Source of the DNA: Pseudoduganella lutea
GTDB lineage: Bacteria; Pseudomonadota; Gammaproteobacteria; Burkholderiales; Burkholderiaceae_D
Direction: 5' to 3'
Length of the DNA stretch: 64,000 nucleotides
Assembly: GCF_004209755.1 (NCBI RefSeq)
Contig: NZ_CP035913.1
Coordinates: forward strand, 4,278,001-4,342,000
Made by a program: the position numbers and the translations under genes. This document shows, in pieces, positions 18,603 through 45,038 of the stretch. Positions within the stretch are counted from its first letter, which is position 1, and each line of letters begins with the position of its first letter. Under the pieces are notes generated by a model. It ran no database searches and was not told the origin of the DNA. It was given only the letters and a program-made list of their open reading frames with translations.

Positions 18603-18617
18603 AGTAGTGGGACTACA
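18603..18617. promoter_or_regulatory. Operator copy 1 of the TGTAGT-N3-ACTACA motif
   Basis: AGTAGT-GGG-ACTACA, 11 of 12 positions symmetric. It lies 24-38 bases upstream of the SusA-like start, where a bound protein would block transcription or its initiation. Confidence 0.65.
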
Positions 18618-18798
18618 AGCTCTTGGACGGCTTGCTGCCACGGGAAAACGTGAGCAGAATACTATGATTGCAGGGACTCTACAACGCCCCGGACAGCCAA
18701 TCCCCTAGTTTTAATACATGGTGTGGACGGCAGCAACATGGCCGAAAGACGGTTTCGTTACATCTTTACAGTGGAAACGGTTGTCTTGCCGTGTTTTT

Positions 18799-18813
18799 TG
18801 TAGTTCCACTACA
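18799..18813. promoter_or_regulatory. Operator copy 2, perfect palindrome
   Basis: TGTAGT-TCC-ACTACA, all 12 arm bases symmetric, mid-way between the two divergent genes. It is the best copy of the motif in the window. Confidence 0.7.
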
Positions 18814-18831
18814 GAGTGCCGCCATGATTTC

Positions 18832-18846
18832 TGTAGCCGCGATACA
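18832..18846. promoter_or_regulatory. Operator copy 3, degenerate
   Basis: TGTAGC-CGC-GATACA, same arm and spacer length, 33 bases (about three helical turns) from copy 2. The spacing suggests cooperative binding on one DNA face; taken alone it would be weak. Confidence 0.4.
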
Positions 18847-19050
18847 ACGAAAACGTTGCATGTGCCGCAAACACGGCGCAAAACCGCCAAAACAGGCGTA
18901 GTCGGATTGAACTTTAATTGACACTAGATCTAGTTTTAATACAAAATTCCCTCAGGACGTCTGACAGAGCGGCCGCAATCCTTGGAATCCCATGTAGTCG
19001 AGCTAATTATTGCGCGTGGGAAAAAATCGTACTTTAGTGAGGGGACTTCG

Positions 19051-21783
19051 ATGAAATTCTTTGCGCCTGAGCGCCGTGTGCGCACGGCCCTGCAACTGAG
19101 CCCGGTCGCGGCTGGCTGCGCACTCTTCGTAACCGCGCTGGCGAACCCCGCCGCCGCGCAAACCACCACCACCCCGGCGGCCGAGGCGCCGATCACCACG
19201 GTGACCGTGACCGGCATCCGCCGCGGCATCGAGGATGCCATCTCCGTCAAGAAGGACTCGTCGTCGATCGTCGAGGCCATCTCCGCGGAAGACATCGGCA
19301 AGCTGCCGGACGTGTCCATCGCCGAATCGATCGCCCGCCTGCCGGGCTTGGCCGCCCAGCGCGTGGCCGGCCGTGCGCAGGTGATCTCGGTGCGGGGCCT
19401 GTCCCCGGACTTTTCCACCACGCTGCTGAACGGCCGCGAACAGGTCTCCACCGGCGACAACCGCTCCGTGGAATTCGACCAGTACCCGTCCGAACTGCTG
19501 TCCGGCGTGACGATCTACAAGACCCCGGACGCTGGCCTGATCGGCCAGGGCCTGTCGGGCACGATCGACCTGCAGACCGTGCGTCCGCTGAACTTCGGCA
19601 AGCGCACCGTGGCGATGAACGCCCGCGCCGAGCACAATTCGCTGGGCAGCGTGGCCAACACGAAGTCGCTGGGCAACCGCTTCTCCATCAGCTACATCGA
19701 CCAGTTCCTGAACCGCAAGCTCGGTGTGGCGATCGGCTTCGCGCACCTGGAGTCCCCGGTGCTGGCCCACGAAACCGGCATCTACGAACCGTGGAAGACC
19801 GATTCCCGCACGGGCCTGCCGGCAGGCACCACCGCCACCGATGGCATCAAGGCACTGTCCCGCACCGGCTACAACCGCCGCGACGGCCTGATGGGCGTGG
19901 TGGAGTATCGCCCGACCAAGTCGTTCACCAGCACGCTGGATTTCTACGCGTCGGTGTTCAAGCATGAAGACACCGCCAACCAGTTCGAAGTGAACCTGTC
20001 CGGCTGGAATGGCGGCCTGCAGCCGGAGCCGTTCTATTCGAACGTGACGAAGAACGGCAACGCGATCGGCAGCGCCGTGGCCAACAACGTCTACCCGCTG
20101 GTGCGCGGCATGTACACCAACCGCCGCGACGACATCCGCGCGCTGGGCTGGAACAATGAATGGCGCCTCGATGGCGTGAAGCTGGTGGCCGACCTCTCCT
20201 GGTCGAAAGCCAAGCGCGATGAACTGGGCCTGGAAAACAACCTGCAACTGGGTGCCGTCAACAACGCGCAGTACCTCGATACGATCAACCTGGGCTTCAA
20301 CAGCGGCACGTTCCCGACGATGACGCCGGGCCGCGCCGACTATAGCGACGCATCGAACCTGTACGTGAAGAACACGATCTACGGCTCCGGCTATGGCAAG
20401 GTGCCGTACGTGGAAGATGAGCTCAAGAGCGTGAAGCTGGCCGCCAACTTCCAGGCGCCGGCCGCGCTGGAAAACTGGTTCTCGGGCTTCGACGTGGGCG
20501 TCAACCACAGCGACCGTTCGAAGGACAAGGATCAGCCGGAAGGCAACATCAACCTGGCCGGCAACCCGACCACGATCGATCCGTCGCTGCTGTACGGTTC
20601 CGTCGACCTGGGCTTCGCCGGCGTCGGCAACGTGCCCGCATGGGACGTGCCGGCCGTCGTCGCGCGCTACATGACGTTCAACCCGACCGCTGGCAGCGGC
20701 GCCATCCTGATCAAGAACTGGTCGGTGCGCGAGAAGATTTCCACGGCCTACGCCAAGGCGAACATCGAGCATGAGTTCGGCGACATCTCGCTGCGCGGTA
20801 ACGTGGGCGTGCAGGTGCAGCACACCAAGCAGTCGTCCGATTCGAAGTACTTCAACGGTGCGCTGGCCGGCGACCAGCAGGTGCAGCCGATCCACGACGG
20901 CAAGTCCTACAACGACTGGCTGCCGAGCATGAACCTGAACTTCGGCCTGCCGAACGACCAGACCGTGCGTGTGGCAATGGCCAAGCAGATCGCCCGCCCG
21001 CGCGTGGACCAGCTGCGCGCCGCGCTGGACTTCGGCGTGTCGGACACCACGTTCAAGCCGGGCGCTTCGGGCGGCAATGCGCAGCTCGATCCGTGGCGCG
21101 CCAAGGCGTTCGACGTGTCGTATGAAAAGTACTTCGGCAAGAAGGCCTACGTGGCCGCGGCATTCTTCTTCAAGAAGCTCGACACGTACATCTTCACGCA
21201 GACCAAGACCTATGACTTCTCGGCGTTCATCCCGGGCACGAAGGCCAACACGCAGTTCGGCGACTACAAGGCGCCGTACAACGGCAACGGCGGCACGATG
21301 CGCGGCATCGAACTGTCCGGCTCCCTGCCGCTGAACATGCTGACCCCGGTGCTGGATGGCTTCGGCATCGTGGCGTCCGGTACCTACACGGACAGCAATA
21401 TCGCGATCCAGGAACCGGATGGCTCGATCGGCCAGAACATCCCGCTGCCGGGCCTGTCGAAGCGCGTGACGAACCTGACCGTGTACTACGAGAAGAACGG
21501 CTTCGAGACCCGCCTGAGCCAGCGCAAGCGTTCCGACTTCGTGGGCGAGATCGGCAACTTCGCCGCCGAACGTTCGCTGCGCTACGTGGTGGGCGAGAGC
21601 ATCCTGGACTTCCAGGTCGGCTACACGTTCCAGAACGGCCCGCTGAAGGACATGGGCATCGTGCTGCAGGCGAACAACCTGCGCAACGCCGCCTACGAAA
21701 CCTACAACGGTTCGAAGAACCAGCAGCTGGAATACCAGAAGTACGGCCGCACCGTGCTGCTGGGTGTGAACTACAAGTTCTAA
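19051..21783 (+). CDS. TonB-dependent outer-membrane receptor, maltodextrin type
   Basis: 910 residues from the ATG after GAGGGG. A signal peptide ends near NPAAAQ; then comes a short TonB-box-like segment (ITTVTVTG), the plug (~50-170: EAISAEDIGKLPDVSIAESI, VISVRGLSPDFSTTLLNG) and a long barrel ending in an aromatic residue (VLLGVNYKF). The plug wording is that of the Xanthomonas/Caulobacter carbohydrate receptor group that includes Caulobacter MalA. It should import maltodextrins across the outer membrane. There is no SusD-like lipoprotein nearby, so this is a SusD-independent system. Divergent from the SusA-like operon with shared operators; followed by a strong terminator. Substrate is inferred from context. 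Confidence 0.88.
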   Translation: MKFFAPERRVRTALQLSPVAAGCALFVTALANPAAAQTTTTPAAEAPITTVTVTGIRRGIEDAISVKKDSSSIVEAISAEDIGKLPDVSIAESIARLPGLAAQRVAGRAQVISVRGLSPDFSTTLLNGREQVSTGDNRSVEFDQYPSELLSGVTIYKTPDAGLIGQGLSGTIDLQTVRPLNFGKRTVAMNARAEHNSLGSVANTKSLGNRFSISYIDQFLNRKLGVAIGFAHLESPVLAHETGIYEPWKTDSRTGLPAGTTATDGIKALSRTGYNRRDGLMGVVEYRPTKSFTSTLDFYASVFKHEDTANQFEVNLSGWNGGLQPEPFYSNVTKNGNAIGSAVANNVYPLVRGMYTNRRDDIRALGWNNEWRLDGVKLVADLSWSKAKRDELGLENNLQLGAVNNAQYLDTINLGFNSGTFPTMTPGRADYSDASNLYVKNTIYGSGYGKVPYVEDELKSVKLAANFQAPAALENWFSGFDVGVNHSDRSKDKDQPEGNINLAGNPTTIDPSLLYGSVDLGFAGVGNVPAWDVPAVVARYMTFNPTAGSGAILIKNWSVREKISTAYAKANIEHEFGDISLRGNVGVQVQHTKQSSDSKYFNGALAGDQQVQPIHDGKSYNDWLPSMNLNFGLPNDQTVRVAMAKQIARPRVDQLRAALDFGVSDTTFKPGASGGNAQLDPWRAKAFDVSYEKYFGKKAYVAAAFFFKKLDTYIFTQTKTYDFSAFIPGTKANTQFGDYKAPYNGNGGTMRGIELSGSLPLNMLTPVLDGFGIVASGTYTDSNIAIQEPDGSIGQNIPLPGLSKRVTNLTVYYEKNGFETRLSQRKRSDFVGEIGNFAAERSLRYVVGESILDFQVGYTFQNGPLKDMGIVLQANNLRNAAYETYNGSKNQQLEYQKYGRTVLLGVNYKF

Positions 21784-21804
21784 GCCAGCTTCGCTGCATG
21801 CAAG

Positions 21805-21837
21805 AAGCCCCGTCGCGCAAGCGGCGGGGCTTTTTTG
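21805..21837. terminator. Bidirectional intrinsic terminator
   Basis: Stem AAGCCCCGTCGC / GCGGCGGGGCTT with a GCAA tetraloop and a six-T run. The A's on the other side allow it to serve the convergent siderophore receptor gene too. Confidence 0.9.
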
Positions 21838-21840
21838 CTT

Positions 21841-24057: not shown

Positions 24058-24150
24058 GAAACCCTTCCCGATGGTGGCAGAAGCGGGCTGGCGTCGGCTG
24101 GCTGGCTAATAGTTGACTGGAATCGTCAAGTATAGCCTTTGCGTGCAGGA

Positions 24151-24190
24151 AGGACAAGGCGGGACAAGGCGAGACAAGGTGGAACACGGC
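24151..24190. repeat. Four 10-bp tandem repeats upstream of the siderophore receptor
   Basis: Units of the type GGACAAGGCG run at exact 10-base steps, the last one degenerate. The 10-bp period equals one DNA turn. It lies between the receptor start and the peptidase stop. Confidence 0.6.
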
Positions 24191-24227
24191 GGCACCGGAT
24201 GCATCGAGTGCCCGCCGTGCGCAAGGG

Positions 24228-26093: not shown

Positions 26094-26199
26094 CGTCCCC
26101 TCCGATCCTTTATGAAGCCTTCAATATAAAGCATTTACCCTTGTTTTCATTGCGCCGTTTTGTCATGCTCGCGGTTCTCCATCATCACACTTCCACACC

Positions 26200-28587
26200 A
26201 TGAAAATCTCCACGACCGCGGCGCTCGCGCTGACCTTCGCCTGTCAAACCGCCGTTGCGCAGAACAGCGCGCGGCAGGTGGAAAGCTGGACTGAAAAGGA
26301 TGGCGCGCTACAGATCGTTACCAACGACGGCCGCTACGTGATCCGCCCGTACTCCGCGGCGATTGTCGAGACCACGTTCATCCCGAATGGCGAGCAGCAG
26401 GATGCGCGGTCGCACGCCGTGGTGCTGCGGCCAGCGGGCGTGCCGGCCACGGTGAAGGAAGCCGCTGGCCGCATCGAGTACGCCACGCCGGGCATCACCG
26501 TCACGATCGAGCGCCGGCCGCTGCGCATCAGCTACGCTTACAAGGGCCAGCCGCTGCTGGCGGAAAAGCTGGGCTACACGAGAAGGAACGGCATGGAGGC
26601 GCTGGAGTTCGCGCTCGATGCCGACGAGGCGCTGTACGGCGCAGGTGCCCGCGCCGTGGGCATGAACCGCCGCGGCTACCGCTTCCAGCTCTACAACAAG
26701 GCGCACTACGGCTACGGCAACCGCTCGGAGCTGCTGAACTTCACGATCCCCGTGGCGCTGTCGTCGAAAAAGTACGCGGTGCACTTCGATAACCCGCAAA
26801 CGGGCTACCTGGATTTCGACAGCCGCAAGGACGGCACGCTCGCGTACGAAACGATCGGCGGCAGGAAGACCTACCAGGTGATCGCCGGCGATGCGTGGGC
26901 CGACGTGATGGCGAACTACACGAGCCTGACGGGCCGCCAGCCGCTACCGCCGCGCTGGGCATTCGGCAATTTCGCCAGCCGCTTCGGCTACCACGACGAA
27001 AAGGAAGTACGTGCCGTCGTCGACAGGTTCAGGGAAGAGAAGATCCCGCTCGATGCGGTGGTGCTCGACCTGTACTGGTTCGGCAAGGAGGTGCAGGGTA
27101 CGATGGGCAACCTGGCATGGGACAAGGACAAGTTTCCCGAGCCGCAACGCATGCTGCGCGACCTCCAGAGCAAGGGCGTGAACACGGTGGTCATCACCGA
27201 ACCGTTCGTGCTGACCACGTCGGGCCGCTGGCAGGAAGCGGTGGCGGCGAAAGCGCTGGCCACCACGAAGGATGGCGCACCCTATACGTACGACTTCTTC
27301 TTCGGGAATACCGGTCTGGTCGATATCTTCAGCCCGCAGGGCAAGGGCTGGTTCTGGAACATCTACAAGGGGCTGAAGGAGCAGGGCGTGGCCGGGTGGT
27401 GGGGCGACCTGGGCGAGCCGGAGCTGCATCCGGCGGCGCTGCAGCACGCCACCGGTTCGGCGGACCAGGTGCACAACATCTATGGCCATGACTGGGCGCG
27501 GCTGATCGCCGAGGGCTATGCGAAGGACTTCCCGGACGAGCGCCCGTTCATCCTGATGCGCGCCGGCTATTCTGGGTCGCAGCGCTTCGGCATGATTCCG
27601 TGGTCCGGTGACGTGTCGCGCAGCTGGGGCGGGCTGCAGTCGCAGATGGAGATCGCGCTGCAGATGGGCATGCAGGGCCTGGCCTACATGCATTCCGACC
27701 TGGGCGGCTTCGCCGGCCCCGCGCTCGACGACGAACTGTATGTGCGCTGGCTGCAGTATGGCGTGTTCCAGCCGGTGTTCCGCCCGCATGCGCAGGAAGA
27801 GGTGGCTTCCGAGCCCGTGTACCGCGCGCCGCGCGCGAAACGCCTGGCCGCCGATGCGATCCGGTTGCGCTATGCGCTGCTGCCGTATCACTACACGATG
27901 GCGTTCGAGAACAGCACCACCGGCATGCCGCTGATGCGCCCCGTGCTGTTCGAGGATACGAAGAACGATGCGGGCCTGCTGGCCTCCACTTACCTGTGGG
28001 GCGGCAGTTTCCTCGTTGCGCCGGTGACCGAGCCGGGCGCGCGGCGCAAGGAAGTGTATTTCCCGACCAAGGGCAGCGCATGGTTCGACTTCCATACCGG
28101 CGCGCGGCACGCCGGGGGTATCCTGGAAACGGTCGACGTGGTGGAAGAACGCATCCCGGTGTACGTGCGCGCCGGCGCGTTCGTGCCGATGGCGCCGGTC
28201 GTGCAGACCACGCGCGACTACACGAGCAGGAACATCGATCTGCATTACTGGCATGACCACAGCGTGACGGCGTCGAAGGGCATGCTGTACGACGACGATG
28301 GCGCCACCGCCGATGCGTGGGGCAAGGGCAAGTACGAGATTGCCAGCTTCACCGCGGCCGCGCGGCCGGATGCGCTCGACATCGGCATCGCCACCGAGGC
28401 GGGCAGCGCGATGGCGCCGGTAGTGCGTGCTTACACACTGCACGTGCATGGTCTCGCGAAACCGAAACGCGTGCTGCTCGATGGCCGCGCGCTGGCTTTC
28501 ACGTGGGACGCGAAAACGCGGGTGGCGCGGGTGGCCATCCCGGCGCGGGCGCGGCTCGCGGCAAAGGTCACCGTGCAGTTTTCGTGA
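26200..28587 (+). CDS. GH31 alpha-glucosidase / alpha-transglucosylase (Agd31B-like)
   Basis: 795 residues with a signal peptide cleaved after ALTFACQTAVAQ. An N-terminal beta-sandwich (~25-230) precedes the GH31 barrel (PRWAFGNFASRFGYHDEKEV from ~248). Nucleophile Asp is in WWGDLGEPE (~401) and the acid/base Asp in WSGDVSRSW (~470); C-terminal beta domains follow. The DLGEPE form, rather than the more common DMNE of maltases, is what I recall for Cellvibrio Agd31B, a 4-alpha-glucosyltransferase acting on maltooligosaccharides. It should be periplasmic and either trim or rearrange malto-oligomers before import. Followed by a palindromic repeat and the sugar importer gene. Confidence 0.88.
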   Translation: MKISTTAALALTFACQTAVAQNSARQVESWTEKDGALQIVTNDGRYVIRPYSAAIVETTFIPNGEQQDARSHAVVLRPAGVPATVKEAAGRIEYATPGITVTIERRPLRISYAYKGQPLLAEKLGYTRRNGMEALEFALDADEALYGAGARAVGMNRRGYRFQLYNKAHYGYGNRSELLNFTIPVALSSKKYAVHFDNPQTGYLDFDSRKDGTLAYETIGGRKTYQVIAGDAWADVMANYTSLTGRQPLPPRWAFGNFASRFGYHDEKEVRAVVDRFREEKIPLDAVVLDLYWFGKEVQGTMGNLAWDKDKFPEPQRMLRDLQSKGVNTVVITEPFVLTTSGRWQEAVAAKALATTKDGAPYTYDFFFGNTGLVDIFSPQGKGWFWNIYKGLKEQGVAGWWGDLGEPELHPAALQHATGSADQVHNIYGHDWARLIAEGYAKDFPDERPFILMRAGYSGSQRFGMIPWSGDVSRSWGGLQSQMEIALQMGMQGLAYMHSDLGGFAGPALDDELYVRWLQYGVFQPVFRPHAQEEVASEPVYRAPRAKRLAADAIRLRYALLPYHYTMAFENSTTGMPLMRPVLFEDTKNDAGLLASTYLWGGSFLVAPVTEPGARRKEVYFPTKGSAWFDFHTGARHAGGILETVDVVEERIPVYVRAGAFVPMAPVVQTTRDYTSRNIDLHYWHDHSVTASKGMLYDDDGATADAWGKGKYEIASFTAAARPDALDIGIATEAGSAMAPVVRAYTLHVHGLAKPKRVLLDGRALAFTWDAKTRVARVAIPARARLAAKVTVQFS

Positions 28588-28601
28588 TCCACACAAAACC
28601 C

Positions 28602-28651
28602 GGGACAGACCCCTGTTTAGAGGAAATTTCCTAGAAACACGGGTCTGTCCC
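28602..28651. repeat. Family A intergenic palindrome
   Basis: Arms GGGACAGACCC (28602-28612) and GGGTCTGTCCC (28641-28651) enclose an inner imperfect palindrome around GTTTAGAGGAAATTTCC. Likely folds as one long hairpin at the end of the GH31 transcript. The inner block recurs at 50.6 kb. Confidence 0.8.
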
Positions 28652-28660
28652 TAGTTTTTC

Positions 28661-28675
28661 TGTTGTTTGACTACA
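28661..28675. promoter_or_regulatory. Operator copy 4 (sugar importer promoter)
   Basis: TGTTGT-TTG-ACTACA, one mismatch from a perfect match, 107 bases before the importer ATG. Confidence 0.6.
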
Positions 28676-28734
28676 AAACAACTGAAATCTGGCGTTTTGG
28701 CCACTGAAGTGACGTTGACTGCGTGGTTCGTCCA

Positions 28735-28749
28735 TGTTATTTTGCTACA
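28735..28749. promoter_or_regulatory. Operator copy 5, degenerate (sugar importer promoter)
   Basis: TGTTAT-TTT-GCTACA, 9 of 12 arm positions match, 74 bases (about seven turns) from copy 4 and 33 bases before the ATG. Confidence 0.45.
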
Positions 28750-28781
28750 TATAGAGTAGCGCATAACATCGGAGACCGCGG

Positions 28782-30107
28782 ATGCATTCTTCTTCCACCA
28801 AACCACGGCTGTCGTTCTGGCAGCTGTGGAACATGAGCTTCGGCTTTTTCGGCATCCAGTTCGGCTTTGCGCTGCAAAATGCCAATACCAGCCGCATCTT
28901 TTCCACGCTGGGCGCCAATCCCGATGAACTGCCGCTGCTATGGCTGGCGGCGCCGGCCACCGGCCTGCTGGTGCAGCCCATCATCGGCTACCTGTCCGAC
29001 AATACCTGGCACCCGAAATGGGGCCGCCGCAGGCCGTTCTTCTTCCTCGGTGCCGTGTTCGCGTCGCTGGCGCTGGTCCTGATGCCCAATTCGCAGTCGC
29101 TGTGGATGGCGGCCGCCGTGTTGTGGATGATGGATGCCGCGATCAACGTATCGATGGAGCCGTTCCGTGCCTTCGTCGGCGACAAGCTCGATGAGTCGCA
29201 GCAGACGGCCGGTTTCGCGATGCAGACCTTCTTCATCGGCTGCGGCGCCGTCATCGCCTCGCTGCTGCCGACCATCTTCACCGACTACCTCGGCGTCAGC
29301 AACGTGGCGCCCGCCGGTACCATTCCCGATTCGGTCCGCTATGCGTTCTACGCGGGTGGCACGGTGTACCTGCTGGCCGTGCTGTGGACCGTGTTCACCG
29401 CCGACGAACTGCCGCCCGAGAACCTGGAAGAGTTCCAGCGCGAGCGCAGCCTGTCCAAGGGGCTGGGCCATGCGCTGGCGGAGATCCTCGGCGGCTTTGG
29501 CCGCATGCCGAAGACGATGGTGCAGCTGGCCTACGTGTCGTTCTTCACCTGGGTCGGTCTCTACACGATGTGGATCTACACCACCGCTTCCGTGGCCGAG
29601 AATGTGTTCGGCACGACCGATGCCACGTCGGCCGCCTACCAGGCTGCCGGCAACTGGGTCGGCATGATGTTCGCCGTGTACTCGGGCGTTTCCGCGCTGG
29701 CCGCGTTCATCCTGCCCGTGCTGGCCCGCCTCACGAGCCGCAAGACAGTGCACATGGCCTGCCTTGCCATCGGCGGCGTCTCGCTGGCCAGCGTGTTCCA
29801 GATCCACGACAAGCAGATGCTGATGCTGCCGATGATCGGCGTGGGCCTTGCCTGGGCCAGCATCCTGACGATGCCCTACGCGATCCTGGCCGGCTCGCTG
29901 CCGGCCAAGCGGATGGGCTACTACATGGGCCTCTTCAATTTCTTCGTCGTGATCCCGCAGATCATCGCCGGTGTCGTGCTGGGCTTCGTGATCCGCCACG
30001 CGTTCGATGGCCATGCCGCCAAGACGCTGGTGCTGGGCGGCGTCTCGTTGCTGGTGGCCGCCGCGCTGACGGTGTTCGTGAAGGACAACGTGCGGCGCCC
30101 GAAGTGA
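28782..30107 (+). CDS. MFS sugar importer, sucrose/maltose (SLC45/GPH-like) type
   Basis: 441 residues, about twelve membrane helices. The opening (LSFWQLWNMSFGFFGIQFGFALQ) and the loop motif GYLSDNTWHPKWGRRRPFFF are those of the SUT/GPH-like disaccharide:proton symporters, a group that includes the maltose carrier beside malA in Caulobacter. It should carry maltose or short maltodextrins across the inner membrane. GGAG lies 9 bases before the ATG. Two operator-like sites stand upstream; pgm follows after 120 bases on the same strand. Confidence 0.88.
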   Translation: MHSSSTKPRLSFWQLWNMSFGFFGIQFGFALQNANTSRIFSTLGANPDELPLLWLAAPATGLLVQPIIGYLSDNTWHPKWGRRRPFFFLGAVFASLALVLMPNSQSLWMAAAVLWMMDAAINVSMEPFRAFVGDKLDESQQTAGFAMQTFFIGCGAVIASLLPTIFTDYLGVSNVAPAGTIPDSVRYAFYAGGTVYLLAVLWTVFTADELPPENLEEFQRERSLSKGLGHALAEILGGFGRMPKTMVQLAYVSFFTWVGLYTMWIYTTASVAENVFGTTDATSAAYQAAGNWVGMMFAVYSGVSALAAFILPVLARLTSRKTVHMACLAIGGVSLASVFQIHDKQMLMLPMIGVGLAWASILTMPYAILAGSLPAKRMGYYMGLFNFFVVIPQIIAGVVLGFVIRHAFDGHAAKTLVLGGVSLLVAAALTVFVKDNVRRPK

Positions 30108-30185
30108 GCGTCAACCTGTAGCGCCGACCTGGAAACGGCGCGTTCGGCACCGAGCCGCGCGCCGTCGCGCACTGGATCGCGGTAG

Positions 30186-31859
<1,674 letters not shown>

Positions 31860-31895
31860 TTAACCTCGCCAACCTCGCCAACCTAGAAAGGTCGC

Positions 31896-33563
31896 ATGAA
31901 GCTCACATCCATTGCATTGTCCATCCTTTTGGCCGCATCCGGCACGTCCGCGCTGGCGGCGACACCGAAACCAATGCCGTTCATGTGGGAGAACGCGACC
32001 GTTTATTTCCTGCTCACCGACCGCTTCGCCAACGGCGACAAATCGAACGACCTGGCCTATGGCCGGAAAGCCGACGCGGCGCCGTTGCGCGGTTACCTGG
32101 GCGGCGACCTGAAAGGGCTGACGGCGAAGGTCAAGGAAGGCTATTTCGACAGCCTGGGCGTGAACGCGATCTGGCTCACGCCACCCGTGGAGCAGATCCA
32201 CGCCGGTACCGATGAAGGTACCGGCAAGTCGTATGGCTTCCACGGTTACTGGGCACGCGATTTCACGGCCGTCGATGCCAACCTGGGCACCGAGCAGGAT
32301 TTCCGCGACTTCGTCGACGCGGCCCATGCGCGCGGCATCCGCGTGCTGCTGGACGTGGTGATGAACCACACCGGCCCGGTAACGGATGCCGATCCCGTGT
32401 GGCCGGCGGATTGGGTGCGCACGTCGCCCACGTGCGCGCACAAGGATGCGCCGACGACGATCTCCTGCACGCTGGTGGACAACCTGCCGGACGTGCGCAC
32501 GGAAAGCGATACGCCGGTGGCCCTGCCGCCAGCGCTTGTTGAAAAATGGAAGAAGGAAGGGCGCTACGAGCGCGAAGCGAAGGAGCTGGACGACTTCTTC
32601 GCCCGCACCGGCTACCCGCGCGCGCCGCGTTACTACCTGATGAAATGGCACGCGGACTGGGTACGCAAGTACGGCCTCGATGGCTATCGCGCCGACACCG
32701 TCAAGCACACCGAGGCGGGTGTATGGAAGGAACTGCGCACCGTCACCGAGGCGGCGCATGCCGAATGGAAGAAGGCCAACCCGGGCAAGGTGCTTGGCGA
32801 CGGAAAATTCTTCACCGTGGCCGAGGTGTACAACTATGCCATCGGCCATGGCCGCGAGTTCGACATGGGCGGCGGCGTGAAGACCGACTTCTACGCGAAC
32901 GGCTTCGACAGCCTGATCAACTTCAGCCTGCCCGGCGATGGCAAGGGCGACTACGAAAGCATCTTTGCGAAATTCTCGGCGCAGCTGCATGGCCCGCTGA
33001 AGGGCAAGTCCGTACTGAACTACATGGACTCGCACGACGACGCCAACGCCTTCGATGCGGCGCGCGTCAAGCCTTTCGAGACCGCGAACAAGCTGCTGCT
33101 GGCACCGGGCGCCGCGCAGGTCTACTACGGTGACGAAACCGCGCGGCGGCTCGACATCGCCGATGCTGTCGGCGATGCGAAGCTGCGCTCGTTCATGAAC
33201 TGGGACGAGCTGGCATCGAACGGCGCACGCGACGGTTACCGCGTCGCCGATGTGCGCGCGCACTGGGCGAAGCTGGGCCAGTTCCGGCGCGCCCACCTGT
33301 CGGTCGGCGCCGGCACGCATGCGAAGCTGGCCGATGCGCCGTATACGTTCTCGCGCACCTTCAGCGGCAATGGCGCCAGCGACAAGGTCGTGGTGGCGCT
33401 GGACGCCCCGGTCGGCAAGCCCGTCGCGATCAAGGTCGGCGGCATCTTCGCCAACGGCACCAAGGTGCGCGACGCCTACGCGGGCGCCACCTACACCGTC
33501 GCCAATGGCGCCGTGCGCACGAGCGGCAAGTTCAGCACCATCCTCCTCGAACTTGCCCGTTAA
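31896..33563 (+). CDS. Periplasmic GH13 alpha-amylase (MalS-like)
   Basis: 555 residues with signal peptide (SIALSILLAASGTSALAA). The barrel starts WENATVYFLLTDRFANGDKSND. Catalytic Asp is in GYRADTVKHTE (~266), Glu in VAEVYNYAIGHG (~309) and the third Asp in YMDSHDDANAF (~378). An extra Cys-bearing insert after the first barrel strands (TCAHKDAPTTISC) suggests a disulfide and fits secreted MalS-type (GH13_19) enzymes. It cuts long maltodextrins to shorter ones in the periplasm. 36 bases after pgm with a repeat of AACCTCGCC between them; no operator copy here, so it probably belongs to the importer-pgm transcript. Confidence 0.9.
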   Translation: MKLTSIALSILLAASGTSALAATPKPMPFMWENATVYFLLTDRFANGDKSNDLAYGRKADAAPLRGYLGGDLKGLTAKVKEGYFDSLGVNAIWLTPPVEQIHAGTDEGTGKSYGFHGYWARDFTAVDANLGTEQDFRDFVDAAHARGIRVLLDVVMNHTGPVTDADPVWPADWVRTSPTCAHKDAPTTISCTLVDNLPDVRTESDTPVALPPALVEKWKKEGRYEREAKELDDFFARTGYPRAPRYYLMKWHADWVRKYGLDGYRADTVKHTEAGVWKELRTVTEAAHAEWKKANPGKVLGDGKFFTVAEVYNYAIGHGREFDMGGGVKTDFYANGFDSLINFSLPGDGKGDYESIFAKFSAQLHGPLKGKSVLNYMDSHDDANAFDAARVKPFETANKLLLAPGAAQVYYGDETARRLDIADAVGDAKLRSFMNWDELASNGARDGYRVADVRAHWAKLGQFRRAHLSVGAGTHAKLADAPYTFSRTFSGNGASDKVVVALDAPVGKPVAIKVGGIFANGTKVRDAYAGATYTVANGAVRTSGKFSTILLELAR

Positions 33564-33580
33564 AAAAATTCCCTGAAACC

Positions 33581-33629
33581 GGGGACTGTCCCTCCAAGGG
33601 GGACAGTCCCCCAGGGAGGGACAGTCCCC
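33581..33629. terminator. Perfect 15-bp-arm palindrome between convergent genes (family A)
   Basis: Arms GGGGACTGTCCCTCC and GGAGGGACAGTCCCC with a nested GGGACAGTCCCC copy between. It sits between the amylase stop and the pullulanase stop, followed by TGGTTTTTA, so it probably ends both transcripts. Confidence 0.75.
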
Positions 33630-33657
33630 ATGGTTTTTACAACACTGTTTGTCGGGT

Positions 33658-36393
33658 TTATTCCACAAACACGACGGCGGTGCGGGCGGGGATGGTGAAG
33701 CGGCCGGTGGGGGCGTCGTAGCGGGCTTCGCGGGCGCGTGTGTCAGCGGCGGTGGGAGAGGCCTGCACCGGGTGCAGCGTCCAGGTGCGCCCGGCTTCCT
33801 GCGGCACGACGATCGATTGTGCGGTCTTGTCGACGTTGAGCAGGTACAGCACGGCCTTGAAGCCGGCGCCGGCGTAGCCGTTGCCGTCGAGGCGGCCGGC
33901 GATCACGGTGGGGACCTGGGCGGGGCCGGTGTTGTAGAAGCGCAGGCGCTGTTCGACGTCGGCGGTGCTGCGCAGCCGGAACAGCGTGCTGCCGGCGCGG
34001 ATCTTCAGCAGGTCGCGGAAGGCGTCGCGGGTGAACGCGATGTCGGCTGGCGAAGGCTTGAAGGCCGGATTGGCCAGCAGCGGCTGGAACAGCGCGTAAT
34101 CCTTGCCGTTGTCGGCCGCGGGCGGCAGGCCCGTGCCGAAATGGTTGTCGCGGTAGGTCCAGTCCAGCCGGTTGAACCAGTCGCCCGATTCGAAGCTGTT
34201 GCGGTCCAGCGATTTGGAGCGGAGGATGTCGAAGCCGGCGTGGAAGTAGGCCACGCCCTGGCTGAACGCGTTGATGGCGGCGGCCAGCACCTGCACGCGG
34301 GCGCGGTCGGCCGTCGATGTCGAAGCGGGCAGGCGCAGCACGTTCAGGTCGTACAGCGTCTGGTTGTCGTGGTTTTCCACGTAGTTCACCACTTCGCCCG
34401 GTTCGCTCGCGTAACCGGCCGGCTGGCCGCCGTAGTCGATGCGCTGCAGTTCGCGGATCTCGCCCGTGTGCGTTGGCAGCGGGTAGGTGCGCAGCGTGCC
34501 GGCCAGGCCCGCCTTGACGAGATCCGCCGCCTTCAGCAGGTCCGCAGGGTTGCGGGAGGCGCCCTCGTTGGGGTCATACACCAGCCCGTTGACATAGCCC
34601 TGGCGCGTGATCATGTCGCGCCCGGCGTCGCCGGCGCCGCCACCGCGCACGGCATCGCGGCCACGGTCGCTGAAGGTGCCGATGCCGCTGCCGTTCAGCG
34701 ACAGCTGTGAAGCCTGCACGAAGCGCTTGCCATCGGCCACCTCGCCGAAGTTCCAGCCTTCGCCGATCAGGTGCACGTGCCGGCCGGCGGCCGCGTTCAC
34801 GCGGCGCTGCAGCGTTTCCATGACGGCGCGGGGCTGGTGGCCCATCAGGTCGAAGCGGAATGAATCGATGTGGTAGGCCTGCGTCCACAGCACGCTCGAA
34901 TCGACCATCAGCTTGCCCATCATGCGGTGCTCGGTGGCCGTGTTCTCGCAGCAGGTGGAGCGCTCGATCGCACCTTTCGCATCGAGGCGATGGTAGTAGC
35001 CGGGCACCACGCGGTCCAGCACGGATTTTTCATCCTGGCCGGCCGTGTAGGTGTGGTTGTAGACAACGTCCATGCCCACGCGCAGGCCGGCGCCGTGCAG
35101 CGCCATCACCATCTGTCGCAGCTCCAGCACGCGCTTGCCGCCGTCCGCCGGATCGGTGCTGTAGCTGCCTTCCGGCGCGTTGTAGTGGTAGGGGTCGTAG
35201 CCCCAGTTGTAGCAGTCCGCCAGCTTGCTCGCGCCGATGAGTTTCTGCTGGGCGTCGCTGTCCGCCGCGCCCACCGGGGCTTGCGTCACGCAGCCTTTCT
35301 CGGGAATGCTGCCGATGTCGTACACCGGCAGCAGGTGCACATCCGTGAGCCCGGCCTGCGACAGCGCACGCAGGTGCTTCATGCCGTCCGAGCCCTGTTC
35401 GAGGAAGGCCGTGTACTTGCCGCGGTTCGCCGGGCTCACGGTCGCGTCGCCGATCGAGAAATCGCGCACGTGCAATTCGTAGATCGACATGTCCGGCTGT
35501 GCGCGCACCTTGGCCGGCGGTGCATCCTTGTCCCAGCCGGCGGGCTTCAGGCGCGGCGACGACAGGTCGGCGATGTAGCTGCGCCGCGAATCGGTGGTGA
35601 GGCTGACGGAATACGGGTCGGTGACGAGGTTGCGCACGATGCCGGCGCCCGGCACGGGCACGTCCACCGCATACCGGTAGTACTTGCCGTCCAGGTTGCC
35701 GCCCACCGTGGCGGACCAGACGCCGGTCTTCGGGTCGAAGCGCAGCGGCGTCGCGGCGCGCGAGGGGCTGGTGCCCTTGTCGTAGGTGCACACGGATACC
35801 CGTTGCGCGGTCGGCGCCCACAGCTTGAACGTGGTGCCGTTCGCGCGCGGCGTGGCGCCCAGGTCGGGCACCGCTTCCGCCGCCGCATACAGGTCGTCGA
35901 GCGCGCCCGCCACCTGTACCCGCGTGGCATCGAGCACGGTGCCGTCCGCGGCTTCGCTCACCAGCAGAAGCTTGCCGCGGTGCAGGCGGGCGATATCGGC
36001 CACGTCGGCGTCGCGCAATGCGAACACGGGGGCCTGCCCCAGGTAGCGCAGGCGTTCCGGCATGGCGGCAGGCGTGGCATCGAGGGCTAGGAACCCGTCC
36101 GCGCCGCCGACCTTGCCGCCGGCCGGCGCCGTCACCGAAGCGTTGCGCGCGTGGTAGAGCCTCACGCGGCTGTCGGCACGGGCACCCGGCCACGCCAGCG
36201 TGCGCCGGTCCAGCCATGCGGCACGCGCGTCGAACGTCGCGGTATTGGAAGAAAGGACAACCTGGAATCCATCGCCATCGCAGAGGGCGGCGGATGAAGT
36301 GGCGGCGTGCGCTGCACCCGCCGCGGCGATGGCGTTGGCGAGTGCCGCGGCAACGGCGAGGCGCAGCGCGCGGCTGCGGTATTGATGGTCCAT
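33658..36393 (-). CDS. pulA: Pullulanase-type alpha-1,6-glucosidase
   Basis: 911 residues from [12 protein letters not shown] with a long signal peptide. An N-terminal starch-binding-type domain is followed by a CBM48 (~215-320, [21 protein letters not shown]), the GH13 barrel (from ~330, [15 protein letters not shown]) and a C-terminal beta domain. Catalytic Asp is in [11 protein letters not shown] (~514), Glu in [11 protein letters not shown] (~544) and Asp in [12 protein letters not shown] (~672); [17 protein letters not shown] is the pullulanase signature. It debranches pullulan, glycogen or amylopectin. The frame is open 23 residues further upstream, but that extension runs through the palindrome, so ATG 36393 is preferred. 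The preceding gene on this strand is a chemoreceptor. Confidence 0.93.
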
Positions 36394-36435
36394 GCGTCCC
36401 CCTGTTTCGATGGGGACGTATGGTAAAGGAAGCTT

Positions 36436-36460
36436 GCGACTACAGCCATGCTGTAGTCGC
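36436..36460. promoter_or_regulatory. 25-bp perfect palindrome upstream of pullulanase
   Basis: Arms GCGACTACAGC and GCTGTAGTCGC around CAT, 43-67 bases before the pullulanase ATG. Each arm contains the TGTAGT half-site of the operators elsewhere, but facing outward, so it could hold two weakly matched overlapping sites or a related regulator's operator. Confidence 0.65.
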
Positions 36461-36479
36461 ACCGGTCATGCACGGGGGA

Positions 36480-38222
36480 TCAGAACTCTTCCCAGTCGGT
36501 CTCGGAACCCACGGTCACGGGCGCCTTGCGGGCCGCCGGTGCCGCCGGCCGGGTGGTGTTTGCCGCCGGCAGGGCTGCGCGGACGACAGGCTTTGCCACC
36601 GGCTTTGCGGCCGGCCTGGTGGCATGGGCGCGCGTGGCTGGCGCCGGGGCGCTGCCCTGTGCCACCGTGAACGTGCCCACCAGCTCGGCCAGGCGGCGCG
36701 CCTGTTCCTGCATCGATTCGGAAGCGGCGCTGGCCTGTTCCACGAGCGCGGCGTTCTGCTGCGTCACTTCGTCCATCTGCGTGATCGCCACGTTCACCTG
36801 GTCGATGCCGCTGCTCTGCTCGCGGCTGGCCGACGAGATTTCCGCCATGATGTCCGTCACGCGCTGCACGCTGCCGACCACTTCGGTCATCGTGGCGCCG
36901 GCCTGGCCCACCAGCTGGGTGCCGACGCCGACCTTGTTCACGGAATCGTCGATCAGCACCTTGATTTCCTTGGCGGCGGTGGCGGAACGGTGCGCCAGGT
37001 TGCGGACCTCGCTGGCCACGACGGCGAAGCCACGGCCCTGTTCGCCGGCACGCGCCGCTTCGACGGCCGCATTCAACGCCAGGATATTGGTCTGGAACGC
37101 GATGCCGTCGATGACGGAAATGATGTCGACGATCTTCTTCGCGGACGCATCGATCGCGCCCATCGTGTCGACCACCTGCGCCACCACGGCGCCGCCCTGG
37201 GCGGCAACGGTGGAAGCCGATGCGGCCATCGCGCTGGCCTGCTGTGCATTCTCGGCGTTCTGGCGCACGGTCGACGTCAGTTCTTCCATCGACGATGCGG
37301 TTTCTTCCAGCGAGCTGGCCTGCTCTTCGGTGCGCGACGACAGGTCCAGGTTGCCGGCCGAGACTTCGGCGGCAGCGGTGGCGATCGTGTCGGTGCCAGT
37401 GCGCACTTCGGTGACGATGGCGGCCAGCTTGTCGCGCATGTTACGCATGGCGAACATCATGCTGGCGGTATCGCCGGCCTTTACCGGTACGTCCACCGTC
37501 AGGTCGCCATCGGCGATGCGGGCGGCAATCGCAGCCGCGTCGTTCGGTTCGCCGCCCAGCTGCTTGAGCAGGGCACGCGTAATCGTCACGGCGGCCGCGA
37601 TACCCACGACGAGCGCCAGCGCCGCCAGGGACAGCATCAGCGTCACGGCGCTCCGGTATGCCTCCTTGGCCGCCTCGGCATCTTCCTTGTTCAGCTTGTT
37701 CTCGAGCTGGATGAGCTGGGACATGGCGGTTTGCCATGCGATCTGCACTGGGCGCACCTTTTCCAGCAGGACCTTCGTGGCCGCTTCGGCCTCGTTGGCC
37801 AGGCCCAGCTTTTCAGCTTCGGCCATCAGCGGCATGGCGATGCGTTCCTGTTCGCGGATCGTGGCGAACAGCACCTTTTCCTCCGGTGCCGTGTCGGGTG
37901 CGTTCAGGGATTTCTCCAGCAGGACGATCCGTTCCGCATACATCTTTTCCAGTTCGCGCATGCGTTCCGCTTCCGGGCGCATCACGTTCACGTCGGTCAG
38001 CAGCGCCAGATTGCGCAGGATGATCGCGCGTTCCATCAGGCTGTCCTTCAGGGCGCCGATATTCGAGATCTGGACGTTGTTGAAATCGGTGATCCCGTCG
38101 ATGCGTTCCTGCATCGTACGCATTTTCATCAGGCCAGCGCCCACGATGACGAGCAGCAGGACAAAGACGATCGCATAGCCCAGCGCCAGCCGGGTGCCGA
38201 CTTTCATATTCTTGAAGTTCAT
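36480..38222 (-). CDS. Methyl-accepting chemotaxis protein with CheR-tether tail
   Basis: 580 residues: TM1 (~11-31, [20 protein letters not shown]), four-helix-bundle periplasmic sensor (~32-190), TM2 (~192-214), HAMP (~215-268), then the signalling domain with the invariant hairpin [20 protein letters not shown] (~375-395). After an Ala/Pro linker it ends SETDWEEF, whose WxxF form fits the CheR/CheB-binding pentapeptide of high-abundance receptors. The ligand is unknown. Its place directly before the pullulanase gene on the same strand hints at sensing maltodextrins, but only by context. Confidence 0.94.
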
Positions 38223-38418
38223 GGTTTTCCGTTCGGTATCGACGACCGCGAGAAAGCAGGGGCGGTCAATGGGGCCGGCGACGCGAGGACTGGGCGGGGC
38301 CGGTCGGCACTGTCATAGTGCCTTCGGGCAATTATACGGAAATTTCCGTATGGAATGAGTTTGCTTGCACTGTTTTGTTGCGTGTGCGCCGCAGGAAGCG
38401 TCGGAATTCTTGTATGTT

Positions 38419-38455
38419 CTACCGGTACTCCATCGAAAGGATCGAGTACCGGTAG
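38419..38455. terminator. Hairpin with perfect 12-bp arms after the POT transporter gene
   Basis: CTACCGGTACTC and GAGTACCGGTAG with a 13-base loop, 14 bases past the stop; outer TGTT/AACA can extend the stem. No T-run, so termination is probable but not certain. Confidence 0.55.
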
Positions 38456-38468
38456 CCGAACATGAAAA

Positions 38469-40061
38469 TCAGGCAACGGCCGGCTGCGCCCGGTAGTTGT
38501 CGACCATCTTGTAGCGCCGCGCGTAAAGGCCGAACAGCAGGGCCGTCACCATGGCAAAAGCAGCAAAGAAGAACATCTGGAAGGCGATCACGGACAGCCC
38601 CGTATCGCCGATATGGCCCAGCACCGCGTCGTTCTTCACGCTGGCGTTGACGATCAGCACCCACAGGTTGCCCACCGTGACGGCCAGCGTCCAGAAGCTC
38701 ATGATCGATCCCTTCATCGATGCCGGTGCCTGGCTGTAGGCGAATTCCAGGCCCGTGGCGGAGACCAGCACTTCGCCCATCGTCAGCAGCGCGTAGGGTG
38801 CCAGCTGCCACAGGATCGACATCGGCGTGCCGGCATCCATCGATACCTGGATCCAGCCGATCACCAGCCACGACACGGCCGAGAAGACGATGCCGGCCGT
38901 CATGCGGCGCAGCGCGGTCGGTTCCACGCCGCCTTTGCGCAGCAGCGGGTAGATCACCAGGTTGTTGAACGGGATCAGGAGCATCACCAGGGCCGGGTTC
39001 ACGGCCTGCATCTGCGCCGGCAGGATCTGGAATTCCCAGCCGAGCAGGTTCAGCACGGGGCTCGTCATGGCATTGGCCTGCACGATCCACGTGGAAGCCT
39101 TCTGGTCGAACAGCGACCAGAATGGCGTGACCAGCGCGAAGACGACGAGGATGCGCAGCACCGCGCGCACGCCTTCCACCGCTTCATCGGGGTGATGGCC
39201 GCGCGCCCGTTCCAGCTGCATCGCGGTGCCGATGCCGCCGAATGCCAGCAGCAGCACCAGCGCCGTGCAGGCCGCGATCACGAAGCCCCATGAGAACGAC
39301 ATGAGCAGCGACACCACTGCCCCGGCGGCGCCCATGGCGGCCACCACCAGGCCGGGGCGGCCCTGGCCCGGCTTTTTCGCCAGCAGCGCGGTGCGCGCCA
39401 CGCGCGTCAGCGAATCCGGGCTGGGCGGCGCCGGTGGCACGTGCACGTATTTCTTGTTCCCCAGCCAGAAGATGAGGGTGGCCAGGGCCATCAGCAGGCC
39501 GGGAATACCGAAGGCCACGGAAGGGCCATAGTTCTTCAGGAACAGGGGCATCAGCAGCGACGCGAAGAACGAGCCGAAATTGATGATCCAGTAGAAGGCG
39601 TCGTAGACGACCTTGGCCCGCTTCTTGTTGGTCTGGTCGAACTGGTCGCCCACGAAGGCCGACACGAGCGGCTTGATGCCGCCCGCGCCCAGCGCGATCA
39701 GGAACAGGCCGAAGTAGAAGCCCGTGAGGTTGTCCTCGAAGATCGCCAGGCAGGCGTGGCCGGCCACGTAGACGAGGCTGAGCCAGAAGATCGTGTTGTA
39801 TTTGCCGAAGTAGCGGTCGGCCAGGAAGCCGCCCAGCAGCGGGAAGAAATACACGCCGATGACGAACGTGTGGAACACGTGCTTTGCTTCGCCCGTGCGG
39901 TCTTCCAATGGAATGAACAGCAGCAGGGTGCTGATCAGGAAAGGCGTCAGGATATTGCGCATGCCATAGAAGGAAAAGCGTTCGGCCCCTTCGTTGGCGA
40001 TGATGTACGGTATCTGGCGCGGCAGCGGGCCGGAGCCCGCTTCGTGGGTGGCGTTTGCCAT
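38469..40061 (-). CDS. POT/PTR2-family proton-dependent oligopeptide transporter
   Basis: 530 residues with about fourteen membrane helices. The family signatures are visible: helix 1 ANEGAERFSFYGMRNIL (the ExxERFxYY proton site), FPLLGGFLADRYFGKYNTI and GAGGIKPLVSAFVGDQF. It imports di- and tripeptides with protons. Single gene, divergent from the alpha-glucosidase; no operator match is closer than 103 bases to its start. It is probably unrelated to glucan use, though peptides from the M2 peptidase would be natural substrates. Confidence 0.93.
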   Translation of the reverse strand: MANATHEAGSGPLPRQIPYIIANEGAERFSFYGMRNILTPFLISTLLLFIPLEDRTGEAKHVFHTFVIGVYFFPLLGGFLADRYFGKYNTIFWLSLVYVAGHACLAIFEDNLTGFYFGLFLIALGAGGIKPLVSAFVGDQFDQTNKKRAKVVYDAFYWIINFGSFFASLLMPLFLKNYGPSVAFGIPGLLMALATLIFWLGNKKYVHVPPAPPSPDSLTRVARTALLAKKPGQGRPGLVVAAMGAAGAVVSLLMSFSWGFVIAACTALVLLLAFGGIGTAMQLERARGHHPDEAVEGVRAVLRILVVFALVTPFWSLFDQKASTWIVQANAMTSPVLNLLGWEFQILPAQMQAVNPALVMLLIPFNNLVIYPLLRKGGVEPTALRRMTAGIVFSAVSWLVIGWIQVSMDAGTPMSILWQLAPYALLTMGEVLVSATGLEFAYSQAPASMKGSIMSFWTLAVTVGNLWVLIVNASVKNDAVLGHIGDTGLSVIAFQMFFFAAFAMVTALLFGLYARRYKMVDNYRAQPAVA

Positions 40062-40164
40062 GGATAGCCTTCTCGAATTGTGGATGGACGCGATGCTATG
40101 CCGAATACGGTTGCGCTGGCAATGGCACGCCAGCGCCGGCTTGAGCCATCTTTATTGAGGGTGA

Positions 40165-40179
40165 TGTAGTTTGACTACG
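40165..40179. promoter_or_regulatory. Operator copy 6 (alpha-glucosidase promoter)
   Basis: TGTAGT-TTG-ACTACG, 11 of 12 arm positions, between the POT and alpha-glucosidase genes, 169 bases before the ATG used here. Confidence 0.6.
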
Positions 40180-40233
40180 GATGGCCTGACAAATATTTTA
40201 TCGATGAATGTATAAGTCATTGATTTATAAGGA

Positions 40234-40248
40234 TGGTGTGCGACTACG
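40234..40248. promoter_or_regulatory. Operator copy 7, degenerate (alpha-glucosidase promoter)
   Basis: TGGTGT-GCG-ACTACG; the right half is good, the left poor. It lies 69 bases from copy 6, similar to the 74-base pair spacing at the importer promoter. Confidence 0.35.
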
Positions 40249-40347
40249 TCGTTACAGCGCGCCGTTGAACTATTCATACGCATGATGTATATTCTCTACA
40301 GCACCATCAATTTTGTTCCACATTCTCCTTTACCACTCTCTCTCTCA

Positions 40348-44984: not shown

Positions 44985-45038
44985 CGTGCCGGGTAATGAA
45001 ACCGGCGGGCCCGCTGGGCCCGCTGACCGACAGGAAAA

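Follow-up and report, generated by a model that had tools for sequence, protein, structure and literature searches.

We report that the 15-bp dyad TGTAGT-N3-ACTACA, which recurs in noncoding DNA of a 64-kb stretch of the Pseudoduganella lutea genome, is probably the operator of GlkR, a fusion of a glucokinase with an RpiR-type regulator that is encoded behind an alpha-glucosidase gene in the same stretch. This stretch, hereafter the window (65% G+C), comprises positions 4278001-4342000 of a single 7.50 Mb contig. The comparisons below point to a real and conserved, dispersed alpha-glucan regulon with an operator of the RccR type, most likely read by the glucokinase-fused RpiR regulator. L and G numbers denote loci and genomes, and published work is cited throughout from excerpts of the papers concerned.

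Operator sites and promoters in the window

Three noncoding stretches carry the motif (dyad sites are given without strand). The first separates the divergent genes for a cyclomaltodextrinase-type GH13 enzyme (16660..18579, minus strand) and a TonB-dependent receptor of the TIGR01782 type (19051..21783, plus strand). It holds an exact operator at 18799..18813 (TGTAGTTCCACTACA, 0 mismatches), a site with one mismatch on the cyclomaltodextrinase side at 18603..18617 (AGTAGTGGGACTACA), weak sites with three mismatches at 18704..18718 (CCTAGTTTTAATACA) and, 33 bp beyond 18799, at 18832..18846 (TGTAGCCGCGATACA), and a proximal site in the TonB receptor promoter at 18929..18943 (TCTAGTTTTAATACA). 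The operon of a sugar importer of the GPH/MFS type (28782..30107, plus strand), which probably includes the genes for a phosphoglucomutase (30192..31859, plus strand) and an alpha-amylase (31896..33563, plus strand), is preceded by a distal operator at 28661..28675 (TGTTGTTTGACTACA, one mismatch) and a proximal operator at 28735..28749 (three mismatches). The third stretch is shared by a POT-family transporter gene (38469..40061, minus strand) and the divergent gene for a GH13 alpha-glucosidase (40360..41979, plus strand; start chosen within the open reading frame 40282-41979); it contains a distal operator at 40165..40179 (TGTAGTTTGACTACG, one mismatch), a site with three mismatches at 40234..40248 that is probably a chance match, and a proximal site at 40286..40300 (TGTATATTCTCTACA). 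An earlier note on this DNA had described the sites at 18603, 18799, 28661 and 40165 with weak partners at 18832, 28735 and 40234, and its coordinates, partners and spacings (33, 74 and 69 bp) all match the sequence; the sites at 18704, 18929 and 40286 are additional. Its observation that a siderophore receptor gene and a peptidase (M2) gene have no match directly before them is confirmed. A match immediately upstream is also lacking for two glucan genes of the window, which encode a GH31 enzyme (at 26200) and a pullulanase (33658-36462).

The four main operator-like sites are genuine and far beyond chance. Over the three noncoding stretches (921 scan positions in total; control of 2000 dinucleotide shuffles), four matches with at most one mismatch compare with a shuffled mean of 0.003 and a maximum of one per run, and 12 matches with at most three mismatches compare with 0.38, a count that no run equalled. 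Over the whole window, the 23 matches with at most three mismatches compare with 4.4 in shuffles. When all 4096 dyads of the 6-3-6 form (a hexamer, three bases and the reverse complement of the hexamer) are ranked in the three stretches, TGTAGT stands first. Window-wide it ranks only 53rd, because G+C-rich dyads lead in a sequence of 65% G+C, and it is first among the 960 dyads with two G/C per half. The shuffles and the dyad ranking rule out chance or base composition as the cause of the sites.

Each stretch also carries predicted promoters, found as matches to a sigma-70-type consensus. These are TTGACA-18-CAAAAT at 18918..18947 (plus strand) for the TonB receptor (a consensus match only; 0.6 in shuffles), TTGACT-17-TATTTT at 28715..28743 (plus strand) for the importer operon (a consensus match; 0.3 in shuffles), and TTGAAC-17-TATATT at 40265..40293 (plus strand) for the alpha-glucosidase-GlkR operon (one of three consensus matches; 0.6 in shuffles); a second match in the last stretch, at 40171-40199 (plus strand), overlaps the distal site. 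In all three promoters the proximal site (18929, 28735 or 40286) overlaps the predicted -10 box, the one at 18929 lying in the spacer and touching the -10, and this placement suits repression. The distal sites 18799, 28661 and 40165 lie 130, 74 and 121 bp 5' of their proximal sites.

Distribution in the genome

The genome has five copies of the exact core, GTAGTNNNACTAC, against 26 of the reversed control. All five lie outside called genes and before glucan or glucose genes: an alpha-amylase, a stand-alone glucokinase (1.755 Mb), the cyclomaltodextrinase/TonB receptor stretch (two copies) and the alpha-glucosidase. Allowing one mismatch gives 13 sites (27 for the reversed control), of which four are in the window. 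Six are inside called open reading frames and seven outside, and six of the latter seven precede glucan genes, namely the four window sites and a pair, 109 bp apart, immediately 5' of the alpha-amylase gene at 0.275 Mb. A paralogue of the TonB receptor at 3.636 Mb has three upstream sites with two mismatches, two of them 98 bp apart and one 31 bp further. At up to two mismatches the genome contains 127 sites against 347 for the reversed control, with places listed only to about 3.0 Mb. The concentration of sites upstream of glucan genes, on which the earlier note had staked its claim, is therefore seen genome-wide. Its description of a local regulon fails: members lie at 0.28, 1.76 and 3.64 Mb, and the scan rejects a regulon confined to the window in favor of a dispersed one.

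The operator core is also several-fold rarer than its reversed control, both here (5 against 26) and in 39 relatives; avoidance of the sequence or a codon effect is possible.

Conservation among relatives

Sites are kept in orthologous promoters, a further check that the earlier note had proposed, and together with the genome-wide concentration this strongly supports its claim of a shared operator for glucan genes. Upstream of the cyclomaltodextrinase, a counterpart of 18603 (at most two mismatches) and a site like 18704 in the same place (at most three) are each found in 13 of 15 loci. All 14 orthologues of the TonB receptor (at least 65% identity) have the 18799 site with at most one mismatch, the 18832 partner at an identical spacing of 33 bp with at most three, and the proximal 18929 site. 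More distant TonB receptors are preceded by similar arrays at L133, L135 and L138-L141, and are without the array at L134, L136, L137 and L142. Within the genus, importer promoters keep the distal 28661 site (at most two mismatches; 22/22) and the proximal 28735 site (21/22), and alpha-glucosidase promoters keep the distal 40165 site (at most two mismatches; 23/23) and a proximal TGTATATT-N-TCTACA (22/23). The right half of this last site decays in some Massilia, so part of its conservation may stem from the -10 box. The pairs 18799/18832 and 28661/28735 remarked on in the earlier note are thus conserved, but its third pair, 40165/40234, is not; we reject it as a conserved pair, since 40234 is present only in its own locus, 1 of 23 same-genus loci. 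The stand-alone glk gene has two sites (at most two mismatches) in 24 of 24 same-genus loci, a count that excludes one truncated locus (L193), and in 0 of 5 loci outside the genus. The distances between sites among relatives are 33 and about 98 bp for the TonB receptor, 74-76 or 98-101 bp for the importer, 110-124 or 77 bp for the alpha-glucosidase and 52-54 or 62-64 bp for glk.

A wider set comprised 79 named loci (from Duganella, Pseudoduganella, Rugamonas, Massilia and a few others) plus L337, L338 and L340. Here the 69 alpha-glucosidase promoters include 62 in which a site has at most one mismatch and two in which it has two (64/69 in all), while 300 control dyads with a shuffled hexamer reach at most 1 of 69. 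Sites with at most two mismatches also precede 8 of 10 importer genes and 9 of 27 pullulanase genes. At the same threshold none was found before phosphoglucomutase (0/10), amylase (0/13), directly before GlkR (0/86), or before the PadR-type regulator gene and the neighboring gene for a major facilitator superfamily (MFS) transporter (0/46 each). For the alpha-amylase at 0.28 Mb, the orthologue in G023 has only a site with two mismatches, and those in G031, G027 and G156 have core sites.

Across 40 same-genus genomes the core occurs one to seven times per genome, compared with 23-52 times for the reversed control. Eighteen genomes, the present one included, had a complete list of places, giving 74 core sites (34 placed through fetched surroundings and the other 40 through coordinates). 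Glucan or glucose genes follow or flank 69 of these: alpha-glucosidase, cyclomaltodextrinase/TonB receptor, a TonB receptor paralogue, glucokinase, alpha-amylases (one core, at L400, being shared with a radical-SAM gene on the opposite side), pullulanase and one sugar MFS transporter. Of the remaining five, the one at L382 precedes a phosphoenolpyruvate (PEP) carboxylase gene, the one at L387 falls within an Hsp70-like gene and the one at L388 follows a SpoVR-like gene; at L395 the core separates a glutamate dehydrogenase gene from a LysR gene, and at L393 no clear gene is nearby. G024, which has no alpha-glucosidase, and the incomplete G006 have one core each, upstream of the stand-alone glucokinase. 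The site at L382:3950 in G031 is of the RccR type and stands about 100 bp 5' of the PEP carboxylase gene; it may be an additional target or a chance match.

The candidate regulator

Only two genes in the genome encode an RpiR-type helix-turn-helix (HTH): a stand-alone HexR, which adjoins zwf with pgi and edd nearby, and GlkR (42081..43946, plus strand), the candidate reader of the operator, whose gene sits right behind the alpha-glucosidase gene. GlkR joins a glucokinase half (TIGR00749, 315.1 bits, above the curated 225.45) to a regulator half of the RpiR/HexR type that contains both HTH_6 (PF01418, 63 bits) and SIS (PF01380, 67.5 bits) domains. Neither paralogue reaches the curated 296 bits of the HexR subfamily NF008451 (fusion, 227.5; stand-alone HexR, 263.7). 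In a tree of 48 regulator domains, 39 fusions fall on one side of a branch with support of 100/100. The mean predicted local distance difference test score (pLDDT) of a GlkR structure prediction, built with 15 close sequences, was 45 and too low to use.

The fusion was found in 35 of 36 same-genus genomes, the present one included, the exception being G006 (83% complete). In the named loci it stands among glucan genes, though a few fetched stretches (for example L265 and L289) show only one other sought gene. The two DNA-contact arginines of RccR (R53 and R56) are kept in 80 of 80 Telluria-group fusions and in 30 of 30 other fusions.

In several Massilia genomes a single glucan cluster holds two fusion genes, separated by about 10-15 kb (L279/L288, L283/L290, L287/L293, L284/L297, L274/L296 and L268/L294).

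Relation to known systems

The earlier note had read the motif as a regulon's own operator; in fact it equals the published 15-bp operator of RccR, a regulator of the HexR/RpiR kind (PMC5489143). RccR of Pseudomonas fluorescens senses 2-keto-3-deoxy-6-phosphogluconate (KDPG) and binds the dyad TGTAGT/ACTACA, two copies of which (TGTAGTTTTACTACT and TGTAGTAAAACTACA) lie 68 bp apart before aceE; its targets include aceEF, the glyoxylate shunt and gluconeogenesis genes, and it also has a second, 28-bp class of sites (PMC5489143). The present system resembles it, as far as the 15-bp class is concerned, in having TGTAGT-N3-ACTACA operators in pairs and an HTH and SIS protein. It differs in that GlkR has leucine at the position of S188 and a tail unrelated to that of RccR, which has S188, K270 and R277. 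Among solved relatives of the GlkR regulator half, chain 8ju9 scores best (203 bits); we take it to be RccR because the KDPG contacts given in PMC10810197 bear the same numbers in the stretch covered. The excerpted portions of PMC5489143 and PMC10810197 do not mention a glucokinase fusion of RccR.

HexR of proteobacteria is likewise of the RpiR family, has a similar 15-bp dyad and acts on glucose metabolism; a site predicted for Vibrio HexR is TGTAATTAAATTACA (PMC11906056), and Neisseria HexR is known to us through a citing paper (PMC6957213). The targets of RccR and HexR belong to the Entner-Doudoroff pathway and central carbon metabolism, whereas the exact cores here precede glucan genes and glucokinase, and the putative regulon takes in TonB-type uptake and glucan cleavage. 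A bifunctional glucokinase/HexR-type regulator, PRK14101, is named in a paper on Paraburkholderia xenovorans (PMC12568896). GlkR has the same domain order and matches PRK14101/NF010701 over nearly its full length (residues 13-596), with 809.2 bits against a curated cut-off of 920. The listings of the literature searched, which covers few subscription journals, gave no operator or glucan regulon for a glucokinase-RpiR fusion. MalT and SusR are also regulators of maltodextrin or starch use. The LacI-type proteins MalR, MalI and MdxR control maltodextrin genes elsewhere (PMC4052901). All five do the same physiological job and are set apart from GlkR by regulator family.

The fusion and the motif in other genera

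The motif and the fusion tend to travel together across genera. At seven of 18 fusion loci fetched from other genera, two sites stand 72 bp from each other; the pair is upstream of zwf, with the fusion following zwf, at L332, L336, L341, L343, L344 and L345, and upstream of the fusion itself at L331. At L334, sites with one mismatch lie beside the fusion and before a pullulanase gene. The zwf operon of L341 faces sugar ABC transporter genes, the binding protein of which has its best, weak match in the glucose-binding GlcS. In other families, unfused glk-hexR pairs (L213, L214) or hexR (L215) stand beside Entner-Doudoroff genes with TGTAGT-type sites; L213 and L215 have sites with one mismatch between edd and zwf, and L214 has an intergenic site with two mismatches and one with a single mismatch just inside the called edd gene. 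The motif probably predates the fusion. Regulator and motif together are probably also older than their use for glucans, since in other genera the fusion is found in a zwf operon with a pair of this motif, and sugar ABC transporter genes adjoin it at the loci scanned for them.

At L342:8181-11759 the fusion gene adjoins a LamB-type maltoporin gene, and the motif is absent.

Weighing the alternatives

Several observations weigh against GlkR as the reader of these sites. Five of the 69 alpha-glucosidase promoters are degenerate (L272 and L340 with three mismatches; L291, L292 and L295 with four), and the GlkR recognition helix is nearly unchanged at these loci. G006 shows no fusion although both glk sites are kept, so that a different protein may read them there; in G024 the fusion lies beside the POT gene, with no alpha-glucosidase and no site (at most two mismatches) between them. 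In the survey of other genera, sites with up to two mismatches are absent from L329, L340 and L342, L335 has its only site inside a GH31 gene and L328 only a site with two mismatches. Six loci of that survey (L331, L332, L341 and L343-L345, not L336) hold another pair with one mismatch, between the fusion and hexR or near hexR, which precedes a porin-like gene in L332 and L341. The motif is therefore not confined to fusion operons, and this extra pair could belong to either regulator. The DNA-contact arginines are identical in GlkR and HexR. Finally, the spacings do not fall on one helical phase at a period of 10.5 bp (R 0.21; 10 hand-picked distances). Looping, which the earlier note had suggested from the paired spacing, is possible but unsupported, and we reject phasing as an argument for it; higher phase values near 11.25-11.5 bp came from trying 11 periods on the same 10 hand-picked distances and are not counted.

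It is conceivable that the stand-alone HexR beside zwf, not the fusion, binds the sites, linking the use of glucan with the Entner-Doudoroff pathway via KDPG. HexR is of the same family with the same contact arginines, its match to 8ju9 (225 bits) exceeds that of the fusion (203 bits), it is present in at least 35 of 36 same-genus genomes among the matches listed, including G006, and the further motif pair near hexR in other genera would suit it. Its own locus, however, carries other elements: all 14 loci that have edd carry TGTAGTAAAATTTC 38-39 bp upstream of that gene, GTAGTAAATTTACA lies before zwf in 8 of 15, and the glucan motif (at most one mismatch) is missing from all 15 zwf, 14 edd and 14 pgi promoters, those of edd and pgi lying in a common stretch. 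We consider HexR as sole reader improbable. A reading in which both paralogues bind with different preference, GlkR reading the operator and HexR modulating, overlaps with the one we prefer, so that the two are not exclusive. The shared left half TGTAGT and 15-bp length of the glucan and HexR motifs, and the twin regulators HexR and RccR of Pseudomonas (PMC5489143), speak for it, but at the loci compared no promoter carries both elements, and such joint control seems rather unlikely, if more plausible than HexR alone. The sites might instead be bound by another regulator. The PadR-type protein encoded at 44439 is one possibility, its gene coming after that of GlkR at many loci of the Duganella group; an unlinked maltose regulator of the LacI type, akin to those that govern maltodextrin genes elsewhere (PMC4052901), is another. 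We reject PadR, since the site is kept where the fetched stretch lacks the PadR gene (for example L277, L279, L282, L290, L293, L294, L296 and L297) and all 46 PadR promoters are without one of at most two mismatches; no LacI-type protein is among the 20 window proteins scanned with Pfam, and the motif is that of an RpiR-type regulator. A regulator of another family is thus very improbable. The nonconserved 40234 site and the five of 74 cores away from glucan or glucose genes are what might be expected of palindromes or structural repeats without regulatory function, but the shuffle and dyad tests, the genome counts and the conserved placement contradict this, and its probability is negligible.

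Effector and proposed mechanism

Under the preferred reading, GlkR would bind a strong distal and a weak proximal site and block RNA polymerase while glucan is absent, releasing the DNA once a phosphorylated sugar derived from imported glucan fills its SIS domain. The kinase half makes glucose-6-phosphate, so GlkR may react to flux through itself.

RccR contacts KDPG through S139, H148, R152, H164, S183, S185, S188, K270 and R277, and single changes of R152, K270 or R277 abolish binding (PMC10810197). GlkR keeps six of these nine contacts (S139, H148, R152, H164, S183 and S185), not the full set; R277 lies beyond the RccR residues at hand and is excluded from the contact scores. The position of S188 is leucine in 80 of 80 Telluria-group fusions, and position 270, in a poorly alignable tail, is lysine in 4 of these 80 and 12 of 30 other fusions and alanine in GlkR itself. 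Other fusions vary further, with H148 in 12, R152 in 22 and H164 in 9 of 30. An (S/G/A/T)-H pair, mostly as ISHLD, lies within the last eight residues of all 80 Telluria-group fusions and of 29 of the 30 others; the one without it, L322, is, judging from its match, truncated by a contig end. Such a tail is absent from the four unfused proteins compared. This partial loss of the KDPG pocket and the conserved tail suggest that the effector may have shifted from KDPG, with glucose-6-phosphate, the product of the fused kinase, as a natural candidate. Against such a shift, R152 is present in all 80 Telluria-group fusions and six of nine contacts remain in GlkR, so that KDPG, the effector of RccR and HexR, is possible for GlkR too.

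We tentatively propose, while regarding it as doubtful as a whole, that GlkR is a one-protein flux sensor, in which glucose-6-phosphate from its own kinase would induce the fused repressor; its SIS pocket would have lost part of KDPG recognition and gained the histidine tail, and an old glucose/Entner-Doudoroff regulator with an RccR-type operator would have been captured for a dispersed, TonB-type starch regulon in the Duganella/Massilia group. The analysis puts forward a regulator, a set of operators and a list of targets, all open to test, for the use of alpha-glucan across a large group of bacteria, and a case in which a central-carbon regulator with a nearly unchanged operator seems to have been moved to a polysaccharide regulon. 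The kinase-repressor fusion raises the question of whether an enzyme fused to its own transcription factor can report flux rather than a metabolite pool.

Additional observations

The alpha-glucosidase (40360-41979) scores 797 bits against NF051899, a model named "beta-galactosidase BglA" (cut-off 900), a name that looks wrong for this fold. The PadR-type regulator and MFS genes (44439-46277) follow the fusion in many Duganella-group loci and are absent from the fetched stretch in many Massilia loci. A glucokinase-like match split over two frames at G000:C1:5206562-5207541 is perhaps a decayed copy.

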